Source: a virus
Length of the DNA stretch: 38,840 nucleotides
Virus record (IMG/VR): IMGVR_UViG_3300028025_003742
Location: 1-38,840 of that record
Direction: 5' to 3' (one strand)
Shown piece after piece: positions 12,139-32,849 of the stretch; position 1 is the stretch's first letter; each line of letters begins with the position of its first letter. A program made the position numbers and the translations under genes. Below the pieces are notes generated by a model. The model was given only the letters and a program-made list of their open reading frames with translations. It searched no databases and was not told the DNA's origin.

Positions 12139-12498
12139 ATGGCTGTAGATAAAGTTCTACATAATTATAGAACACCGTTAAGAACCTCATACCTAACATC
12201 TGCTAGAGGAATTACAGTAGATTCTTTTGATAAGGTTGGGGTATTAATAAGTAATTCTGCAGGTGTTTTAAGTAACCTAAATTTTGAAAATCAATCAAAT
12301 TATTATTTAAGTAATGATGGAACTAATGTTGTTTGGAAAAAACCCACATGGCTAGAAACAGCAGCACCCTCCCCAACAACAAGACTAAGTGGAGCATCAA
12401 TTACGCTACCATCAGAATATAGAAGGATCACGATATCCCAGAATTCACCACAGTCATACGATGGTGCTGAAGGAGATATCTGGCTTACGTTCTTGTAA
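12139..12498 (+). CDS. Small tail-region protein
   Basis: 119 residues with a good AGGAG ribosome site 7 bases before the ATG. The pattern is VGVLISNSAGVLSNL, then YLSNDGTNVVWKKP, then a short C-terminal domain ending in GAEGDIWLTFL. The ending resembles the C-terminal strand motif (P...GxxGDIWxxY/F) common in short phage fibre or fibre-tip proteins. Its stop overlaps the start of the next gene (TAATG). Function is inferred from position only. Confidence 0.5.
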   Translation: MAVDKVLHNYRTPLRTSYLTSARGITVDSFDKVGVLISNSAGVLSNLNFENQSNYYLSNDGTNVVWKKPTWLETAAPSPTTRLSGASITLPSEYRRITISQNSPQSYDGAEGDIWLTFL

Positions 12499-14267
12499 TG
12501 GGTATCAAAGCAAGAGCCAAAAAATCAGATATTAGTTTTTGGCAAGACGCAACAGAATTTAAAGCAAAGGTTCAAAATGGCTGGAGACCAGTAATTTATG
12601 GTGCAGTAAAGGTTAACGGTAACTGGGAACCATTTTTTACAAATGGAGTTAAAAGATTTAGAGAAACCCATACAAACGATACAATAACTTTTACTTGGGA
12701 TCAAATATCTGGAGTGACAAATTATCAGTTTTGGGTATCTGAAAAAGAATATGGATCATCATCATTAACTTTTGTAAAGTATGCAGATATAACTCCAACA
12801 CTGTCTGCAGGAAAACACACCTACACATATACAACTGAAAGAGAAAAAGATTATTATTTTTACATAGTTCCATTAATTGGAACAACTCCAGGAAATAGGT
12901 CTGGATACATTTACAGAAGAAGTCCTGTTGGTCCTCCACCGCCAATTACAGACTTGCAGCTAATTTCAAATGATCCTAAAACTGGTTCGTTTAGAATGCA
13001 GTGGACAAATGATAGTAGATATAATCCTGCAGGGTATAGGTACTATGATGATGGTGGTTCACCCTACCAATATACTGTAACTGGAGTATCTGGTCAAAAT
13101 AAAGTTATTGCAAAAAATCAGCTAGGTGTTAATACCGTAACTGGTATATCCGTAGGGTGGGGTGTTTCTGGTACGGGAATTGCAACTGGTGCAACAATTG
13201 TAAGTATAAACCCAACAACAAGAGAGTTGACCTTATCTGCAAACAATACTGGAACAGTATCTGGATATATAATTTTTTATCCACCAATTGTATTTAAAAA
13301 CAACTTTAGTTCAAGCGATGCAACATACATAAAAAGCATTGCAAGTGCAGCAAACGTAGAGTACAAAGTAAAAATTCAAGCATTTAATCTACTTGGTGAA
13401 GGAAGTGGGCTATCAAATCAAATTGAATATCAGTATACTCCAATTTCATATAATAGTTTATTTAGAACATCTTTAACTGGAACAGTAACTGGCTGGAACA
13501 CTTTAAATTTAACTTGGACAGCAGATTCGGCAAATGTGGATCGCTACGATATTCTATATACCACTGGAACAGTTTATACACCACTTGTTTCAAATATTCC
13601 AGGAAGCTCTAATTCAAGATCAGTATCTCTTCCAAATGCAAGCACTACATATAAAATAAAACTAGTTGCTTATGGAAAAGCATTAAATGGAGTTGTTTGG
13701 AGACAAAGCCCAGTTGAATCTACAAGAATTGTAAACTTTACAACTGGAACTCCTGCATCAAGCTCTACAACAAGAACAAATGGAACTGACACTTTAAATT
13801 ATACTGGAACATCAAGAAGAAGAGTAACCATAACGGTAATTCAACAAAGATTATTTAGACCATCACTTGGATTTTACTGGGTTGATCTTAGTAGAAATAC
13901 AACTACTGCAATAGAAAGTGTATCTTATAGCGAGGGTGGACTTTACGACACTACTCAAAATAGAGATCCAGCCAATAGTAATGTATATTATCCTATTTCT
14001 GCAACCAGAAGATATTATTTCTTAATAGACTACGATAGTTATGTATCAAATTATAGCGAAAATTATAGCAATACATGGAATATTGATTCTGTTCTTCAAG
14101 ATCCAAGCTACGGTGGAAGAAGAGATACCACAATTGCATCGGGAAACAATGTGAGATCTACAGTTTCTGGTGGAACCAGAAGATCTAAAATTACAACATC
14201 ATATCACTACAACACCACAACTACAATAGTTGCAGTAAATGGAACCATTACATATACTGCAAATTAG
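12498..14267 (+). CDS. Fibronectin-III-type tail protein
   Basis: 589 residues, translationally coupled to the gene before. The N-terminal ~50 residues include WRPVIYGAVKVNGNWEPFF. Three Fn3-like beta sandwiches follow: residues ~55-140 (ITFTWDQISGVTNYQFWV), ~147-310 (FRMQWTNDS, then YKVKIQAFNLLGEG) and ~320-415 (LNLTWTADSANVDRYDILY). The second is enlarged by a ~70-residue insertion (about 191-262) related to a module in the fibre gene at 2009. The C-terminal ~170 residues are Thr/Ser/Tyr-rich. Fn3 domains in phage tails are usually surface-exposed adhesion or spacer domains. Confidence 0.65.
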   Translation: MGIKARAKKSDISFWQDATEFKAKVQNGWRPVIYGAVKVNGNWEPFFTNGVKRFRETHTNDTITFTWDQISGVTNYQFWVSEKEYGSSSLTFVKYADITPTLSAGKHTYTYTTEREKDYYFYIVPLIGTTPGNRSGYIYRRSPVGPPPPITDLQLISNDPKTGSFRMQWTNDSRYNPAGYRYYDDGGSPYQYTVTGVSGQNKVIAKNQLGVNTVTGISVGWGVSGTGIATGATIVSINPTTRELTLSANNTGTVSGYIIFYPPIVFKNNFSSSDATYIKSIASAANVEYKVKIQAFNLLGEGSGLSNQIEYQYTPISYNSLFRTSLTGTVTGWNTLNLTWTADSANVDRYDILYTTGTVYTPLVSNIPGSSNSRSVSLPNASTTYKIKLVAYGKALNGVVWRQSPVESTRIVNFTTGTPASSSTTRTNGTDTLNYTGTSRRRVTITVIQQRLFRPSLGFYWVDLSRNTTTAIESVSYSEGGLYDTTQNRDPANSNVYYPISATRRYYFLIDYDSYVSNYSENYSNTWNIDSVLQDPSYGGRRDTTIASGNNVRSTVSGGTRRSKITTSYHYNTTTTIVAVNGTITYTAN

Positions 14268-26547: not shown

Positions 26548-26846
26548 TAAAACCTTGTATAGAGTGCAAAAATGATTTTGAGTTTAAGACTCACAATCAA
26601 AAGTACTGCTCTCAACATTGTTGTCGTATTGCCACAAACAAACGCATCATGGAAAAGTACTATGCAAAAAAGGCTAGGCTTTCTGGAAAAGTAAGGCTTT
26701 GTGAATGTGGATCAAAGCTTAGCATGTATAGCCCAGATCCAATTTGTACCCTGTGCTACGAGGCAAAAAAGAAAGAAAAAACAGTAACTGCAATGGAGGT
26801 CATTAAAAGTGCAGCAATTAAAGCTTCAAAAACAAAAAGCAGATAG
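26544..26846 (+). CDS. Double zinc-ribbon basic protein
   Basis: 100 residues, ATGA overlap with the nuclease gene. Two cysteine clusters are seen: CIECKNDFEF with YCSQHC, then CECGS with ICTLC. The protein is strongly basic with a Lys-rich C-terminus, so nucleic-acid binding is likely. The 3' end overlaps the resolvase gene by 38 bases in another frame and carries that gene's ribosome site. HNH catalytic residues are not evident. Confidence 0.6.
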   Translation: MIKPCIECKNDFEFKTHNQKYCSQHCCRIATNKRIMEKYYAKKARLSGKVRLCECGSKLSMYSPDPICTLCYEAKKKEKTVTAMEVIKSAAIKASKTKSR

Positions 26847-27378
26847 GGTGCTAGGTATTGATGCATCAACAGCATCAGTAGCATTCTGCTTGTTTGAGGA
26901 TGGCGTTCCTATTAAAATGGGCAAGCTACCCATTGTTGGAGCCACTATATATGATAAAATTAAGGATGCCAATACAAAGGCTAAAGTAATTGCAAATGTC
27001 TGCAAGGCTGACTATGTAGCAGTTGAATCTGCTATTATGGTTCGTTCTGCAGATGCAGGACTTAAAATTGCTATGATTGTTGGTGCAATCTTATCTGTAA
27101 TTTTGAAACCAGAAACACAGGTAGTAACGGTAGCACCAATTTCTTGGCAGTCTTTTATTAGTAACAAAAACTTTACTAAGGCAGAGAAGTTGCAGGTAGA
27201 AAAAGATTTTCCTGGAAAGTCTGCTGCTTGGTATAAGAACAAGATTAGAGAGATTAGAAAGCAAAGAACGATGGATTTCTTTAATGATAAATTTAATACA
27301 TCAATATCAGACAATGATGTTGGTGATGCATGTGGAATATCCTACTATGCATATAAGAAGCTTACGGAGAGAATATGA
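26809..27378 (+). CDS. RuvC-like Holliday junction resolvase
   Basis: 189 residues from a GTG start. GGAGGT ends 8 bases upstream and supports this start over the later GTG at 26848. The RNase-H-fold motifs are VLGIDAST (D18), VAVESA (E73) and DNDVGDAC (D170, D173), the acidic tetrad of RuvC-type resolvases. It would cleave branched DNA before packaging, which fits the RecA and Cas4-like neighbours. Confidence 0.8.
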   Translation: MQQLKLQKQKADRVLGIDASTASVAFCLFEDGVPIKMGKLPIVGATIYDKIKDANTKAKVIANVCKADYVAVESAIMVRSADAGLKIAMIVGAILSVILKPETQVVTVAPISWQSFISNKNFTKAEKLQVEKDFPGKSAAWYKNKIREIRKQRTMDFFNDKFNTSISDNDVGDACGISYYAYKKLTERI

Positions 27379-27539
27379 GCAAATTATACCAGTCCCAGTC
27401 CTGGCTTACCAAAAGATATATAATTGATCGTAAGACAATTGAAGAGATTGCAAAAGAGTGTGAAACTAGCCACCAGACCGTGTATAGGTACTTAGTTAAG
27501 TTTGATTTAATTAGAAATCAAAGAAAGTGGTCTAAGTGA
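27375..27539 (+). CDS. 54-residue HTH protein
   Basis: ATGA overlap with the resolvase. The core TIEEIAKECETSHQTVYRYL is a classic helix-turn-helix like those of resolvase/transposase or phage Cro-like proteins, and the protein is basic at both ends. Its stop overlaps the GTG of the next gene. It is likely a small DNA-binding regulator; the target is unknown. Confidence 0.7.
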   Translation: MSKLYQSQSWLTKRYIIDRKTIEEIAKECETSHQTVYRYLVKFDLIRNQRKWSK

Positions 27540-27964
27540 GCGTAGTCTATACTGGAGGAACGTTTGATCTGTTTCATTCTGGTCATGTAAACCTATTAAA
27601 AAGGTGCAAAGAAATTGCTGGAGAAAACGGTAAGGTAGTTGCTTCTGTAAACAAATCAGACTTCATTGAAAAGTTTAAGGGCAAGCCTCCTGTTTGTAGC
27701 GATCAAGAAAGGGCTGCAGTTGTAGCATCCTGCCAATATGTAGATGAGGTAGTTTTTAATTTAGGTGGAGAAGACTCTAAAATATCTATTGAGTTAGCAA
27801 ACCCAGACTATATTGTTGTTGGGTCAGACTGGGCTACAAAAGACTACCATGCACAAATGCAGTTTACTCAGGAGTGGCTAGATGAGCGTGGCATAGGATT
27901 GGTATACGTCCCGTATAGCCGTGAGATCTCATCTACTGAAATTAAGAGGAGAATGTCTAAGTGA
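27536..27964 (+). CDS. Cytidylyltransferase-like nucleotidyltransferase
   Basis: 142 residues from a GTG start (GTGA overlap). TGGTFDLFHSGH contains the HxGH motif (14-17) and ISSTEIKRR is the C-terminal ISSTxI(K/R) motif, both signatures of the TagD/RfaE-type nucleotidyltransferase family. Members activate glycerol phosphate, ethanolamine phosphate or sugar phosphates as CDP/ADP derivatives. The following gene encodes glycosyltransferase and methyltransferase domains and overlaps it by 4 bases, so the pair probably belongs to one glycan-modification pathway. The substrate cannot be read from sequence. Confidence 0.85.
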   Translation: MSVVYTGGTFDLFHSGHVNLLKRCKEIAGENGKVVASVNKSDFIEKFKGKPPVCSDQERAAVVASCQYVDEVVFNLGGEDSKISIELANPDYIVVGSDWATKDYHAQMQFTQEWLDERGIGLVYVPYSREISSTEIKRRMSK

Positions 27965-30069
27965 TTAAAACATATGTAGTTGTTTGGAATAGCGTCATTG
28001 ACAACCTAGTGTCAATTGAAAATCAATTAAAGAATTATTCTATTATTAATTCAGATGCTCCAGAAAATCCTTCTTGGAACAATCTTGGAATGGTTTGGTA
28101 CTACAAACAATTACATTTTGCACTAACAGACTTCATTGAAAATACAAGCGATGATATCTTTTGTTGGTTGGCAGCAGATGTTAAGTCAACTACGTTTAAG
28201 GCAGTTTTTGATAGGGCTCAGGAAGTCCTTGAAAATGAAGATAATTTTTTATATGCTCCGCACCTAACACATGAAGCATGGTCAGAAAATGCTTGTTCTT
28301 TAAAATCATATGGAGATGGTCTAAACTATTCGTGTCAAACGGATGGTGCGTTCTACTTTATGAGAAGAGAGCTTGCAGAAATAATTAAATCCTACATGGA
28401 TTACTTATCTAAAAAAGAAGATCTTGAAACAATGAAGTCTGGGTGGGGTGTAGATTATGTTTGGTCTTCTATATCTATATACTTAAATAAATATATTATT
28501 AGAGATACAAAAAACATAGTGTTTCACCCACAGGGAAGCTCCTATGATCACGGTAAAGCCAGTAATGAGATGGGTATTATCAAGCACTGGTTCCTAGAAT
28601 ATTGCTCCACAAATGGAATAGATGCACAGCAAGTAGAATCTATTATGCACAAAATAAGTGGAAGAATGGCTGGAGATAGTTCTTGCATGAAGTTTGTTAA
28701 CTTTTACAAGCCACAAGGATCGGTAGACTACGCTATAGTTTCAATTGATGATAAAAGAAAAACCAACAAGGATCAAATTAAAGATATTTTAGGAGATGAC
28801 AGACTACTTGATATTGAGTCTTTAAATGCCAATAACCAAGAATCTCTTACAAAGTTTTTGTCATCAAATAATGATTTTACTTTTTCTTGGCATGGGTTTA
28901 AGCTTGGAGAGGTTGGATGCTTTGCAAGTCACTACAACATTTGGAAGTATCTTGTAAGTTCTGATTTAGAAAGCATTACGGTTTTTGAAGATGATGCTTG
29001 GATAGAAGATGACTTCATAGTAGATCTTAAAAGAGCAATGGATCTTTTGCCAAAAGATTATGATGTTTTTAGTGTGTATGTGGATACAAATCAGCACCCA
29101 AGGTTTATTGCTAAAGATCATCATATTAATGACACAATATCTAAAGCCTATCAGGACTGGTCTACATTGTGCTATGTTGTTTCTAAAAAGGGAGCACAAA
29201 GGATGCTTGATTTTGTAAAAGAAAATGGATTTGGGGAGCCAGCAGATTGGTTTATTTTTAGAAATGCTCAACGTGGAAATTTTGACGTTTATACTATGCA
29301 TCCAACTGCAAAGTGTCCAGTATCAATTAAAGATGATACAAACAAGTCTACAGTTCAAAATACAAATTTTTTAACACCAGAAGTTATTATGTTTAATGAT
29401 TTTCAAAAGTTTTTAAATAAAAATGAAGAAAGTAAATACTCTCAAAACAAACAAGATCTATTTGCTTTGTTCATCCATGGAGATAAGCCAGGATACTTTG
29501 TGGAGTTTGGTGCCTGTGACGGATTGTATTTAAGCAATACAGTTTTATTAGAAAAAGAATATGGATGGAATGGTATATTGTCAGAACCAGCCCCATCATA
29601 CTACAATGATTTAGTTAAGAATAGAAAATCTCATTTAGAAAATTTATGTGTTGCAAATGAGACTGGAAAAACCATGGACTTCCTTGAAGTAGATTACAAT
29701 AGCGACAAGGGGCTATCTGGATTAACAGATTTTGTTTTTCAAGATCACCACTCTGAGGTTAGGAAAAATAATAGCTCAACCTATTCTGTAGAAACTATAT
29801 CCTTAAAAGATATGCTAGATAAGTATGATGCCCCAGAACACATTGACTTCCTATCTATTGATACAGAAGGGTCAGAATATTTAATCTTAAAGTCCTATGA
29901 TTTTTCTAGGCACTTTAAAGCAATTGCTGTAGAGCACAACAACACCTTAAACAGAGAAAAGATTTATGACTTGCTATCTTCAAAGGGATATGATAGAGTA
30001 TTACTTGAGTTCTCTGCTTGGGATGACTGGTACATAAAAAGAGACTTAATTGAAAAGGATAAAGATTAG
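27961..30069 (+). CDS. Glycosyltransferase - GT25 - FkbM methyltransferase fusion
   Basis: 702 residues from a GTG start coupled to the cytidylyltransferase. Residues ~1-240 resemble a GT-A glycosyltransferase-like domain (CWLAADVKST, TDGAFYFMRRELAEII). Residues ~250-455 form a GT25 domain: GEVGCFASHYNIW (316-328) and VFEDDAW (E343-D344-D345). Residues ~490-690 form an FkbM-type SAM methyltransferase: YFVEFGACDGLYLSNT (512-527) and FLSIDTEGSEYLIL (630-643). The order suggests sugar addition followed by O-methyl capping. The acceptor could be a virion protein, a host surface glycan or DNA. The first domain is the least certain. Confidence 0.82.
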   Translation: MIKTYVVVWNSVIDNLVSIENQLKNYSIINSDAPENPSWNNLGMVWYYKQLHFALTDFIENTSDDIFCWLAADVKSTTFKAVFDRAQEVLENEDNFLYAPHLTHEAWSENACSLKSYGDGLNYSCQTDGAFYFMRRELAEIIKSYMDYLSKKEDLETMKSGWGVDYVWSSISIYLNKYIIRDTKNIVFHPQGSSYDHGKASNEMGIIKHWFLEYCSTNGIDAQQVESIMHKISGRMAGDSSCMKFVNFYKPQGSVDYAIVSIDDKRKTNKDQIKDILGDDRLLDIESLNANNQESLTKFLSSNNDFTFSWHGFKLGEVGCFASHYNIWKYLVSSDLESITVFEDDAWIEDDFIVDLKRAMDLLPKDYDVFSVYVDTNQHPRFIAKDHHINDTISKAYQDWSTLCYVVSKKGAQRMLDFVKENGFGEPADWFIFRNAQRGNFDVYTMHPTAKCPVSIKDDTNKSTVQNTNFLTPEVIMFNDFQKFLNKNEESKYSQNKQDLFALFIHGDKPGYFVEFGACDGLYLSNTVLLEKEYGWNGILSEPAPSYYNDLVKNRKSHLENLCVANETGKTMDFLEVDYNSDKGLSGLTDFVFQDHHSEVRKNNSSTYSVETISLKDMLDKYDAPEHIDFLSIDTEGSEYLILKSYDFSRHFKAIAVEHNNTLNREKIYDLLSSKGYDRVLLEFSAWDDWYIKRDLIEKDKD

Positions 30070-30315
30070 ATGCACGAATATAAAGATGAAAAATTCCACA
30101 TTGAGGTAGATCAGGTAAACCATCCATTTCACTATACGAGTGACCCATCTGGTGTAGAATGTATTGAGATTACACGTCACAGAAACTTTAATATTGGCAA
30201 TGCCTTTAAGTATCTTTGGAGAGCTGGAATCAAAGACGATAAGAAACAAATAGAGGATTTACAGAAAGCTATCTTCTATATTAATGACGAAATTAATAGA
30301 TTGGAAAGTAAATAA
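30070..30315 (+). CDS. DUF3310 protein
   Basis: 81 residues, starting immediately after the previous stop. VNHPFHYTSDPSGVECIEI, FNIGNAFKYLWRAGIKDD and IEDLQKAIFYI are the hallmark segments of DUF3310, a small family common in tailed phages, often near nucleotide-metabolism genes. Its biochemical role is not established. Confidence 0.85.
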   Translation: MHEYKDEKFHIEVDQVNHPFHYTSDPSGVECIEITRHRNFNIGNAFKYLWRAGIKDDKKQIEDLQKAIFYINDEINRLESK

Positions 30316-30537: not shown

Positions 30538-31053
30538 ATGTCTGAGATTGAACTTGCTGACCGCATGGAAAGCATCAACAGGGTTGCAGAAGAGTTTTTA
30601 AAGGGTAACACTAACCCAAATGCTATTGCCAAGGTTACTGGCATGAAAAGAGCAGAGGTACAGGAGTACCTTGATGAGTGGAAAACCATCATACATAGCG
30701 ACAGACAGGTTCAAATTAGAGCCAGAGAAGCCCTAAGTGGTGCTGACCAACACTACTCAATGCTTATTAAAGAAGCTTGGGCAGTTGTAGAAGAAGCAGA
30801 TAGAAGTGCTCAGCTTTCACAAAAGACGGCAGCCCTAAAACTTATTGCAGACATTCAGGCTAAGCAGATGGACATGCTTCAAAAAGCAGGTATGCTAGAT
30901 AACAACGAGCTTGCAGAAAAGATTGTTGAAACAGAGGACAAGCAAAAGCTACTTGTTGAAATTATTAGAGATACGGTATCTGCCTGTGAAAAATGTAAGC
31001 CATTAGTTTTTGGAAAGTTAAGTAAAGTTACAGGTCAAGCAGAGGTTCTATAG
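30538..31053 (+). CDS. terS: Terminase small subunit (probable)
   Basis: 171 residues, directly upstream of and coupled to the large terminase. The N-terminal HTH (FLKGNTNPNAIAKVTGMKRA, residues ~20-40) is followed by a helical oligomerisation region (SAQLSQKTAALKLIADIQAK) and a short C-terminal tail with CEKCK. This architecture and gene order fit a small terminase that recognises the packaging site and feeds DNA to the motor. Small subunits diverge strongly, so assignment rests on context and layout. Confidence 0.65.
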   Translation: MSEIELADRMESINRVAEEFLKGNTNPNAIAKVTGMKRAEVQEYLDEWKTIIHSDRQVQIRAREALSGADQHYSMLIKEAWAVVEEADRSAQLSQKTAALKLIADIQAKQMDMLQKAGMLDNNELAEKIVETEDKQKLLVEIIRDTVSACEKCKPLVFGKLSKVTGQAEVL

Positions 31054-32849
31054 TGTTTGAAGATATTATAGATCTTCTTGGTGGCGATGAGTTTGAAGAG
31101 AAGCCAGTTACAATTGAAGAGTTTGTTGTTAGTGAGCAATACTTAGGGCTACCACCACTTTCACAGTATCAATACCAAGCCATTCGTGCAATGAGTCAAA
31201 TCTATAAAGAACAAACCTTGCTAAACCTTTATGGTCAAGAAGATGGATTAAAGCGTTGGAAGCAAACTTGTAACGAGGTTATCCTACAGCTTGGCAAAGG
31301 TTCTGGTAAGGACTACATGTCTACTATTGCTGTTGCATATATTGTTTATCTTTTATTGTGCCTTAAAGATCCTCAAAGATATTACGGTAAACCCCCAGGT
31401 GATGCAATAGATATTCTTAATATTGCTATTAACGCTGAACAGGCTAAGAATGTTTTCTTCAAGGGTTTCAAGATGCGTCTTGACAACTCTCCTTGGTTTC
31501 AGGGAAGGTATACAACAACAGCACAAGCAGTAACTTTTGACAAGGGAATTACCTGTCACTCAGGTCACTCTGAAAGAGAGTCTTGGGAAGGATACAACGT
31601 GCTCATGGTCATCCTTGATGAAATCTCTGGCTTTGCCACAGAATCAACATCTGGTCATGATCAAGCTAAAACTGGTTCAGCAATCTACGATATGTATCGT
31701 GCATCTGTTGACTCACGTTTCCCTGACTTTGGAAAGGTAGTTCTTCTGTCATTCCCTCGCTATAAGAATGACTACATTCAAACAAGATACAATGCTGTGG
31801 TTGTGGATAAGGTTGTTCATCAAAGAAGTCATACCTTTAAGATTGATGAAACAATTGAAGATTATGCTAGTGAAAATGAAAAGTATAACAATGAGTTTAC
31901 TGTTGACTGGGAAGAAGATGAAATTGTTGCATACAAATATCCAAAGGTGTTTGCTTTACGCAGACCAACATGGGAAATAAATCCAACAAGAAAGATTACG
32001 GACTTTAAAATCCAGTTCCTAACCAACCCTATTGATGCCCTCTCTCGCTTCGCCTGTATGCCTCCAGAGGCTGTAGATGCGTTCTTCAGATCAAGGGAGA
32101 AGATTGAGACATGCTTCTCTGGTCCAAATGGTGTAGAGTCATCTGGCAGGTTTGCAGACTGGTTTAAGCCAAAAGAAGATACAGAGTACTACATCCATGT
32201 TGACCTTGCACAAAAGCATGACCACTGTGCGGTATCATTAGCACACGTTGATAAGTGGGTAAAGATTGATACCTTTAACGACTATGATGTAATTAATCCA
32301 TTTGTTGTTGTAGATGCAATTCGTTGGTGGACACCAACAGCAGACAAGACGGTAGACTTTAAAGATGTAAAGAACTATATCTTAGAACTACGATCAAGAG
32401 GATTCAGAATTAAACTTGTCACATTTGATAGATGGAATTCTTTTGATATTATGAATGAGTTAAAGTCTGTTGGAATGAACTCTGAAACGCTCTCTGTTGC
32501 AAAGAAGCACTATGAAGATATGCAAATGCTGGTAGCTGAAGAAAGAATTTATGGACCACAAACTAACCTACTTATAGATGAGCTATTGCAATTAAGAATC
32601 ATTCGTGATAAAGTAGATCATCCAAGAAAGGGATCTAAAGATTTAGCAGATGCTGTTTGTGGGTCTATATACAATGCAATTGTAAATTCGTCAAGGGGTG
32701 CTAAGGAGATTGAAGTTCATAACTTTAGAGACTTTAAGCCTAACTCCCATAAAGATCTTTATGATGAGTTTTCAAAACCAATTACAAAAAGACCAGATGA
32801 GATGCCAAAAGATGTTGCAGACTTTTTAAGTGGAATGGGGTTTATTTAA
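31053..32849 (+). CDS. terL: Terminase large subunit
   Basis: 598 residues from a GTG start overlapping the upstream stop. ATPase motifs: Walker A LGKGSGKD (80-87) and Walker B LMVILDE (D189-E190). Nuclease domain: HVDLAQKHDH (D384), VTFDRW and KDLADAV near the C-terminus supply the RNase-H-like acidic residues. The enzyme powers DNA translocation into the prohead and cuts the concatemer. Length is within the usual 500-650 range and it appears intact. Portal and capsid genes do not follow directly; tRNAs and lysis genes do. Confidence 0.92.
   Translation: MFEDIIDLLGGDEFEEKPVTIEEFVVSEQYLGLPPLSQYQYQAIRAMSQIYKEQTLLNLYGQEDGLKRWKQTCNEVILQLGKGSGKDYMSTIAVAYIVYLLLCLKDPQRYYGKPPGDAIDILNIAINAEQAKNVFFKGFKMRLDNSPWFQGRYTTTAQAVTFDKGITCHSGHSERESWEGYNVLMVILDEISGFATESTSGHDQAKTGSAIYDMYRASVDSRFPDFGKVVLLSFPRYKNDYIQTRYNAVVVDKVVHQRSHTFKIDETIEDYASENEKYNNEFTVDWEEDEIVAYKYPKVFALRRPTWEINPTRKITDFKIQFLTNPIDALSRFACMPPEAVDAFFRSREKIETCFSGPNGVESSGRFADWFKPKEDTEYYIHVDLAQKHDHCAVSLAHVDKWVKIDTFNDYDVINPFVVVDAIRWWTPTADKTVDFKDVKNYILELRSRGFRIKLVTFDRWNSFDIMNELKSVGMNSETLSVAKKHYEDMQMLVAEERIYGPQTNLLIDELLQLRIIRDKVDHPRKGSKDLADAVCGSIYNAIVNSSRGAKEIEVHNFRDFKPNSHKDLYDEFSKPITKRPDEMPKDVADFLSGMGFI

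Follow-up and report, generated by a model that had tools for sequence, protein, structure and literature searches.

Mycobacteriophages glycosylate their capsid and tail-tube proteins with glycosyltransferases of their own (Freeman et al. 2023, as cited in PMC12363180 and PMC11256854), and virion glycosylation is likewise suspected in Rhodococcus phages that encode glycosyltransferases and methyltransferases (PMC13313380). Analysis of 38,840 bases of the virus record IMGVR_UViG_3300028025_003742 (the whole stretch, referred to below as the window) revealed a cassette that is a real, conserved variant of such phage glycosylation gene sets, and of which no published description was found in the literature searched. 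We propose, with moderate confidence, that it is a module acting in the cytosol, by which the phage glycosylates and methylates its virion proteins.

Genetic organization of the locus

The window is probably an incomplete phage record, in which no major capsid gene was found and the tail genes lie at about 0.2-12 kb. A 589-aa tail-region protein (12498-14267) has no PHROG family at E ≤ 0.01; one stretch of it is 33% identical to a tail-region protein of the sister record G003. The large terminase subunit (31053-32849; PHROG 9 and others) is about 60% identical to the terminases of Streptomyces phages, and the host is therefore likely to be actinobacterial; the phage can be regarded as a freshwater-type relative of the Streptomyces phages.

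The cassette, encoded on the plus strand like the flanking genes named below, fills a cargo slot whose left edge is a RuvC-like resolvase gene (26809-27378; PHROG 159, E 1.6e-16), found left of the slot in relatives too, and whose right boundary marker is the terminase gene. Directly 5' of the cassette is an ORF for a 54-aa helix-turn-helix (HTH) protein (27375-27539; weak HTH matches), followed by the nucleotidyltransferase (NTase) gene (27536-27964; 142 aa), the gene for a 702-aa fusion protein (27961-30069) and, as the right neighbour of the cargo, a DUF3310 gene (30070-30315; PF11753, 8.8e-11), which in G003 has a 90% identical counterpart at an unchanged position. The preliminary description had reported an NTase gene overlapping that of a 702-residue protein; both ORFs were recovered, each with a GTG start and with a mutual overlap of 4 bp. 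Since the HTH ORF also overlaps its neighbours on both sides by 4 bp, the RuvC-like, HTH, NTase and 702-aa ORFs form a chain that looks translationally coupled. HTH homologs are present in 117 fetched loci, many of them overlapping (36% identity in Streptomyces phage Phredrick, 69-80% in sister phages).

The cargo located directly 3' of the HTH gene and ahead of the terminase gene varies between phages: (i) FkbM, NTase and glycosyltransferase genes, (ii) an NTase gene with that of a 175-aa protein (glycosyltransferase-like in sequence by eye, no family match), or (iii) an NTase gene with other glycosyltransferases and SDR enzymes. In Phredrick the order is Cas4-RuvC-DprA-HTH-GT25-GT-NTase-terminase. 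The sister record G001, with terminase and RuvC proteins 78% and 69% identical to those of the window, has a GT4-like gene in the slot; its NTase and three-domain genes lie about 20 kb away, at 29.1-31.6 kb, about 1 kb 3' of the gene for a 696-aa protein that matches a virion structural protein. In G003, an NTase gene and a stand-alone N-terminal domain gene are likewise downstream of virion-type genes. The location between recombination and packaging genes, away from the tail genes, was described correctly, but the emphasis placed on it was misleading: since the slot holds other glycosyltransferases elsewhere and the sister's two genes lie beside virion-type genes, the position near recombination genes is uninformative on function, and since the module is mobile, its neighbours say little about its target. 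G001 also contains a gene for a GDP-mannose 4,6-dehydratase (L208:10559-11566; Pfam, 1.7e-142) and one for a signal-peptide-like protein (L208:15295-16629) that carries a lectin domain of the galactose/rhamnose-binding SUEL type.

The two cassette proteins

The NTase matched the Pfam superfamily CTP_transf_like (PF01467; E 2.7e-18, 66.9 bits against a gathering threshold of 21) and PHROG 7878 (8.5e-31), and alignment of its family revealed the invariant motifs G-G-x-F-D-L-F-H-x-G-H and G-x-D-W-A. Its earlier designation as TagD/RfaE-like holds only at the superfamily level; the NCBIfam equivalog cut-offs were far from reached, both for TagD (TIGR01518; 64.8 bits, cut-off 165.4) and for the heptose-1-phosphate adenylyltransferase HldE/RfaE (TIGR02199; 65.9 bits, cut-off 181.5). 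Among solved structures, the family profile was nearest to ethanolamine-phosphate cytidylyltransferase (5.6e-29, as against only 1e-9 for chain 3glv, an "LPS core biosynthesis protein"). It also matched glycerol-3-phosphate cytidylyltransferase (4.5e-23, full length), entry 5x3d (6e-17), which we take to be the Fom1 cytidylyltransferase domain, and choline-phosphate cytidylyltransferases. Because the nearest proteins of known structure are cytidylyltransferases, CTP would be the likeliest nucleotide. Within the TagD signature, HxGH and GxDW are invariant and ISST is kept; W74 and R113, residues with roles in TagD, are replaced in the window by Gly and Tyr, respectively, and are absent from most family members. 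The NTase is expected to be the source of the activated donor. Seven good relatives were found in cellular genomes, in glycan-type clusters or phage-like contigs, and none of them names a substrate.

An AlphaFold model of the 702-aa protein (mean pLDDT 88.4, pTM 0.73) gave COLGALT1 as its best Foldseek match (5e-17 over 587 columns; next different protein 2e-9), at 13% identity, an rmsd of 19 and with a domain orientation that does not superpose. The apparent joining of a GT-A, a GT25 and an FkbM domain was confirmed, the first by structure prediction and the others by Pfam scores above their cut-offs.

The N-terminal domain (residues 1-250; 27961-28710) belongs to no Pfam family and gave no PDB profile match at E values up to 10; no cellular relatives were confirmed in a pattern search of 84,980 genomes. 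Its AlphaFold model, built on an alignment of 31 relatives, has a mean pLDDT of 93.9, and the top Foldseek matches in the PDB (166 at E ≤ 0.001) are GT-A glycosyltransferases: B4GALNT1 (best, 5.7e-7), GnT I, COLGALT1 and GalNAc-T2. The domain is thus predicted to have a GT-A fold, and the non-glycosyltransferase fold considered in the preliminary description was not seen. The core of GT-A enzymes consists of a DxD motif, a catalytic base (Asp/Glu) on helix F and a C-terminal His (PMC7185993). Across 31 sequences, D73, S160-G161-W162, D165, H189-P190, S193 and Y195 are conserved; the DxD motif is incomplete (A-A-D at positions 71-73, with the first Asp missing and D73 alone invariant), while the catalytic-base-like D165, at a helix start of the predicted model, and the C-terminal H189 are invariant. 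Some GT-A families lacking DxD, namely GT14 and prokaryotic GT6, are nevertheless active and metal-independent (PMC7185993). Given these precedents, the N-terminal domain may be catalytic; with the first Asp of DxD missing, it could alternatively be a non-catalytic acceptor-binding domain. Its occurrence as a separate protein (L003-L005, L057, L076) and its separation from GT25 in L036, L061 and L062 identify it as a true domain.

The GT25 domain (residues about 251-470; 28711-29370) matched PF01755 over residues 303-429 (E 2.4e-16, 60.7 bits against a gathering threshold of 24) and COLGALT1 at about 1e-10, and the FkbM methyltransferase domain (residues about 492-702; 29434-30066) matched PF05050 over residues 516-677 (E 2.7e-17, 63.9 against 22.7 bits) and TIGR01444 of NCBIfam (44.2 bits, cut-off 37.7). 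Inspection of DxD-type and SAM sites had been advised: the acidic GT25 motif E343-D344-D345 is invariant in 30 sequences, and in FkbM the SAM-binding motif is conserved, E515-F-G-A-C-D-G521 being invariant and D634-T-E-G-S-E639 conserved.

The 702-aa protein has an orthologue that is 65% identical over its full length (L001). It is under purifying selection, with dN well below dS in all three domains in comparison with the sister protein, dS being saturated. These two features, together with the presence of its parts in dozens of loci, argue that the cassette is not a chance arrangement. No membrane-like segment was found in the NTase or the 702-aa protein (best 19-residue hydropathy, 1.24), and this fits a cytosolic acceptor, whether a virion protein, a glycan precursor or DNA.

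Gene linkage in relatives and candidate acceptors

A scan with the NTase identified 507 viral stretches; the 80 best loci were retained. The three-domain fusion was found in only one other IMG/VR record (L001). Far commoner is a separate FkbM gene 5' of the NTase gene with a two-domain GT-A+GT25 gene 3' of it, an arrangement present in 14 distinct loci. The fused form is rare, the cassette usually comprising three genes (FkbM, NTase, GT-A+GT25): the term "two-gene cassette" is true of the window, and the same domain order does recur in another phage, but elsewhere the parts are mostly separate genes. The kit occurs in dozens of uncultured phages, usually as separate genes, and its core (NTase and GT25) in cultured Streptomyces phages.

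An adjacent NTase gene was found in 30 of the 32 distinct N-terminal-domain loci with enough flanking sequence (25 of the NTase family of the window, 5 of an unrelated, MobA-like one), and an FkbM domain in 20 of the 32, usually as a separate gene and fused in two; these counts lean on loci from the NTase and glycosyltransferase searches and do not represent a random sample. The two loci without either NTase (L162 and L174) have a methyltransferase-like gene upstream, that of L174 being recognized by eye. Pfam, where it detects the unrelated NTase, gives a MobA-like match (L113, same family, 3.7e-6). Members of this MobA-like NTP transferase family (216-221 aa; L129:6398-7045, L138:6427-7080, L113:4273-4935) adjoin GT-A+GT25 or FkbM genes. 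This is an apparent non-homologous replacement, and its occurrence in five loci suggests that the activation step is needed.

Two further kinds of gene adjoin members of the cassette. A gene beside that of the NTase (L018:782-1543; also L021 and L062) encodes a protein of 253 aa, which combines an APS-kinase-like domain with a weak cytidylyltransferase-like stretch and could supply the NTase with its phosphorylated substrate. IMP dehydrogenase/GMP reductase-like genes, recognized by eye, are located next to the cassette at L009:7841-8857, L025:6081-7100 and L129:7723-8760.

Starting from the domain identities, recognized by sequence or predicted fold, and from the motifs, selection and linkage observed, we infer a substrate, nucleotide, donor, acceptor, order of steps and methylation site as follows: (i) the NTase would activate a small phosphorylated alcohol or sugar with a nucleotide triphosphate, CTP being the likeliest; (ii) the N-terminal GT-A and GT25 domains, jointly or in turn, would attach one or two residues to an acceptor that is produced intracellularly, the likeliest being a capsid or tail protein of the virion; and (iii) the FkbM domain would O-methylate the residue added. 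The activate-attach-cap scheme put forward earlier agrees with the predicted structures and with the linkage seen repeatedly between the genes. Of the acceptors offered with it, virion proteins are those favoured by gene context.

The strongest pointer to a virion acceptor is the gene order in seven distinct contigs (L070, L073, L077, L078, L080, L081 and L186), which concerns other members of the NTase family: GT4, GT2 and NTase genes are flanked on one side by the major capsid gene (confirmed in L072, which duplicates L070; Pfam Phage_capsid, 4e-45) and on the other by head-tail connector and major tail genes. This order, and the foreignness of an FkbM cap and an NTase to DNA glucosylation sets, which to our knowledge contain neither, argue against the suggestion that the glycosyltransferase domains decorate modified bases of phage DNA. 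DNA-hypermodifying glycosyltransferases of phages have been described (Pyle et al. 2024, cited in PMC12619734), the locus of the window is situated among DNA genes, and a ThyX-like gene lies near the cassette in L174 (by eye); no gene of the thymidylate-synthase/hydroxymethylase family (PF00303) was found in the window and 27 related records, all of them fragments, and DNA as the acceptor is very improbable.

The best whole-model match, COLGALT1, is a protein-modifying enzyme with tandem glycosyltransferase domains, which would also be consistent with a virion protein as acceptor. The same match raised the idea of collagen-like (Gly-X-Y) tail repeats as the target of the 702-aa protein, by analogy with COLGALT1 or the collagen glycosyltransferases of mimivirus. 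A probable tail protein of G001 (1380 aa) contains 26 Gly-X-Y repeats (L209:1131; G001:21131-21295), but the window contains none, matches occur in 3 of 28 records of the N-terminal-domain list (one of them weak) as against 5 of 11 without the domain, and no gene for a lysyl hydroxylase was seen next to the cassette. Collagen repeats thus show no general association with the N-terminal domain or the cassette, and such an acceptor is disfavoured and extremely unlikely.

Some observations speak against a virion acceptor: the cassette of the window is not beside virion genes, and some relatives pair theirs with nucleotide-sugar enzymes or secreted proteins, which would suit surface glycans equally well. 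The enzymes might then alter a cytosolic precursor of a cell-wall or capsule glycan of the host, so that other phages adsorb less (superinfection exclusion). GT25 and FkbM are established families, with GT25 members known in LPS synthesis and FkbM members that methylate sugars; the records of relatives contain nucleotide-sugar genes (the GDP-mannose dehydratase elsewhere in G001, SDR genes in L032-L034 and a UDP-GlcNAc 2-epimerase-like gene in L184), and some cassettes adjoin genes for signal-peptide-like proteins. Nevertheless, the 38.8-kb window, whose small ORFs were partly scanned, showed no gene for a flippase, polymerase, membrane glycosyltransferase or integrase, and the cassettes of sister phages and several relatives sit with virion genes; a host glycan is a possible but rather unlikely acceptor.

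The signal-peptide-like proteins also suggest an acceptor that is neither virion nor host glycan, namely a protein that the phage encodes and that is secreted or displayed on the surface in the course of infection. Two such proteins are encoded after the NTase and N-terminal-domain genes of L003-L005, and the SUEL lectin-domain protein of G001 would be another candidate. The cassettes of the window and of the large RuvC-slot group have no gene of this kind next to them, and the proteins vary by locus; this explanation is very unlikely.

If virion proteins are indeed modified, the group added might be a methyl-capped one derived from a CDP-alcohol, not an ordinary sugar, with two unrelated NTase folds interchangeable for one step. 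We know of no description of this chemical kind on virions so far, and consider the idea improbable.

Comparison with described systems

The cassette represents a recurrent, mobile glycosylation set in freshwater-type relatives of Streptomyces phages. The presence of its NTase and GT25 core in cultured Streptomyces phages makes two questions testable: which molecule is activated by this very common phage NTase, and whether the particles of these phages are coated with methylated glycans.

In those phages (Stanwilliamsviridae, e.g. Phredrick gp77-79), a homologous NTase (50-54% identical) and GT25 are encoded 3' of the same HTH gene, between RuvC and the terminase, but GT25 is there encoded apart from the second glycosyltransferase, which is a different one, and no adjacent FkbM gene is present in the records read. 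The NTase itself shares HxGH, GxDW and ISST/ISTT-type motifs with CTP:phospho-alcohol cytidylyltransferases (ethanolamine-phosphate enzyme, TagD, Fom1 domain), and its profile aligns over the full length with TagD and Fom1; it differs from TagD in that W74 and R113 are mostly not kept in its family and the NCBIfam cut-off is missed.

COLGALT1 (GLT25D1) has the same order of an N-terminal glycosyltransferase followed by GT25, but lacks the FkbM domain carried by the 702-aa protein. COLGALT1 activity needs the N-terminal DxD (PMC3244457), the motif that is incomplete here. Large multi-domain FkbM/glycosyltransferase proteins of uncultured, environmental Caudovirales (BFVD, e.g. A0A6J5SUQ0) match the 702-aa model over several domains in the Foldseek table.

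As far as the citing papers describe it, the virion glycosylation of mycobacteriophages (Che8, Corndog, Myrna; Freeman et al. 2023) likewise relies on phage-encoded glycosyltransferases. The cassette of the window, whose glycosyltransferases would also be expected to target virion proteins, differs in encoding a dedicated NTase together with an FkbM methyltransferase and in combining GT-A and GT25 in one chain.
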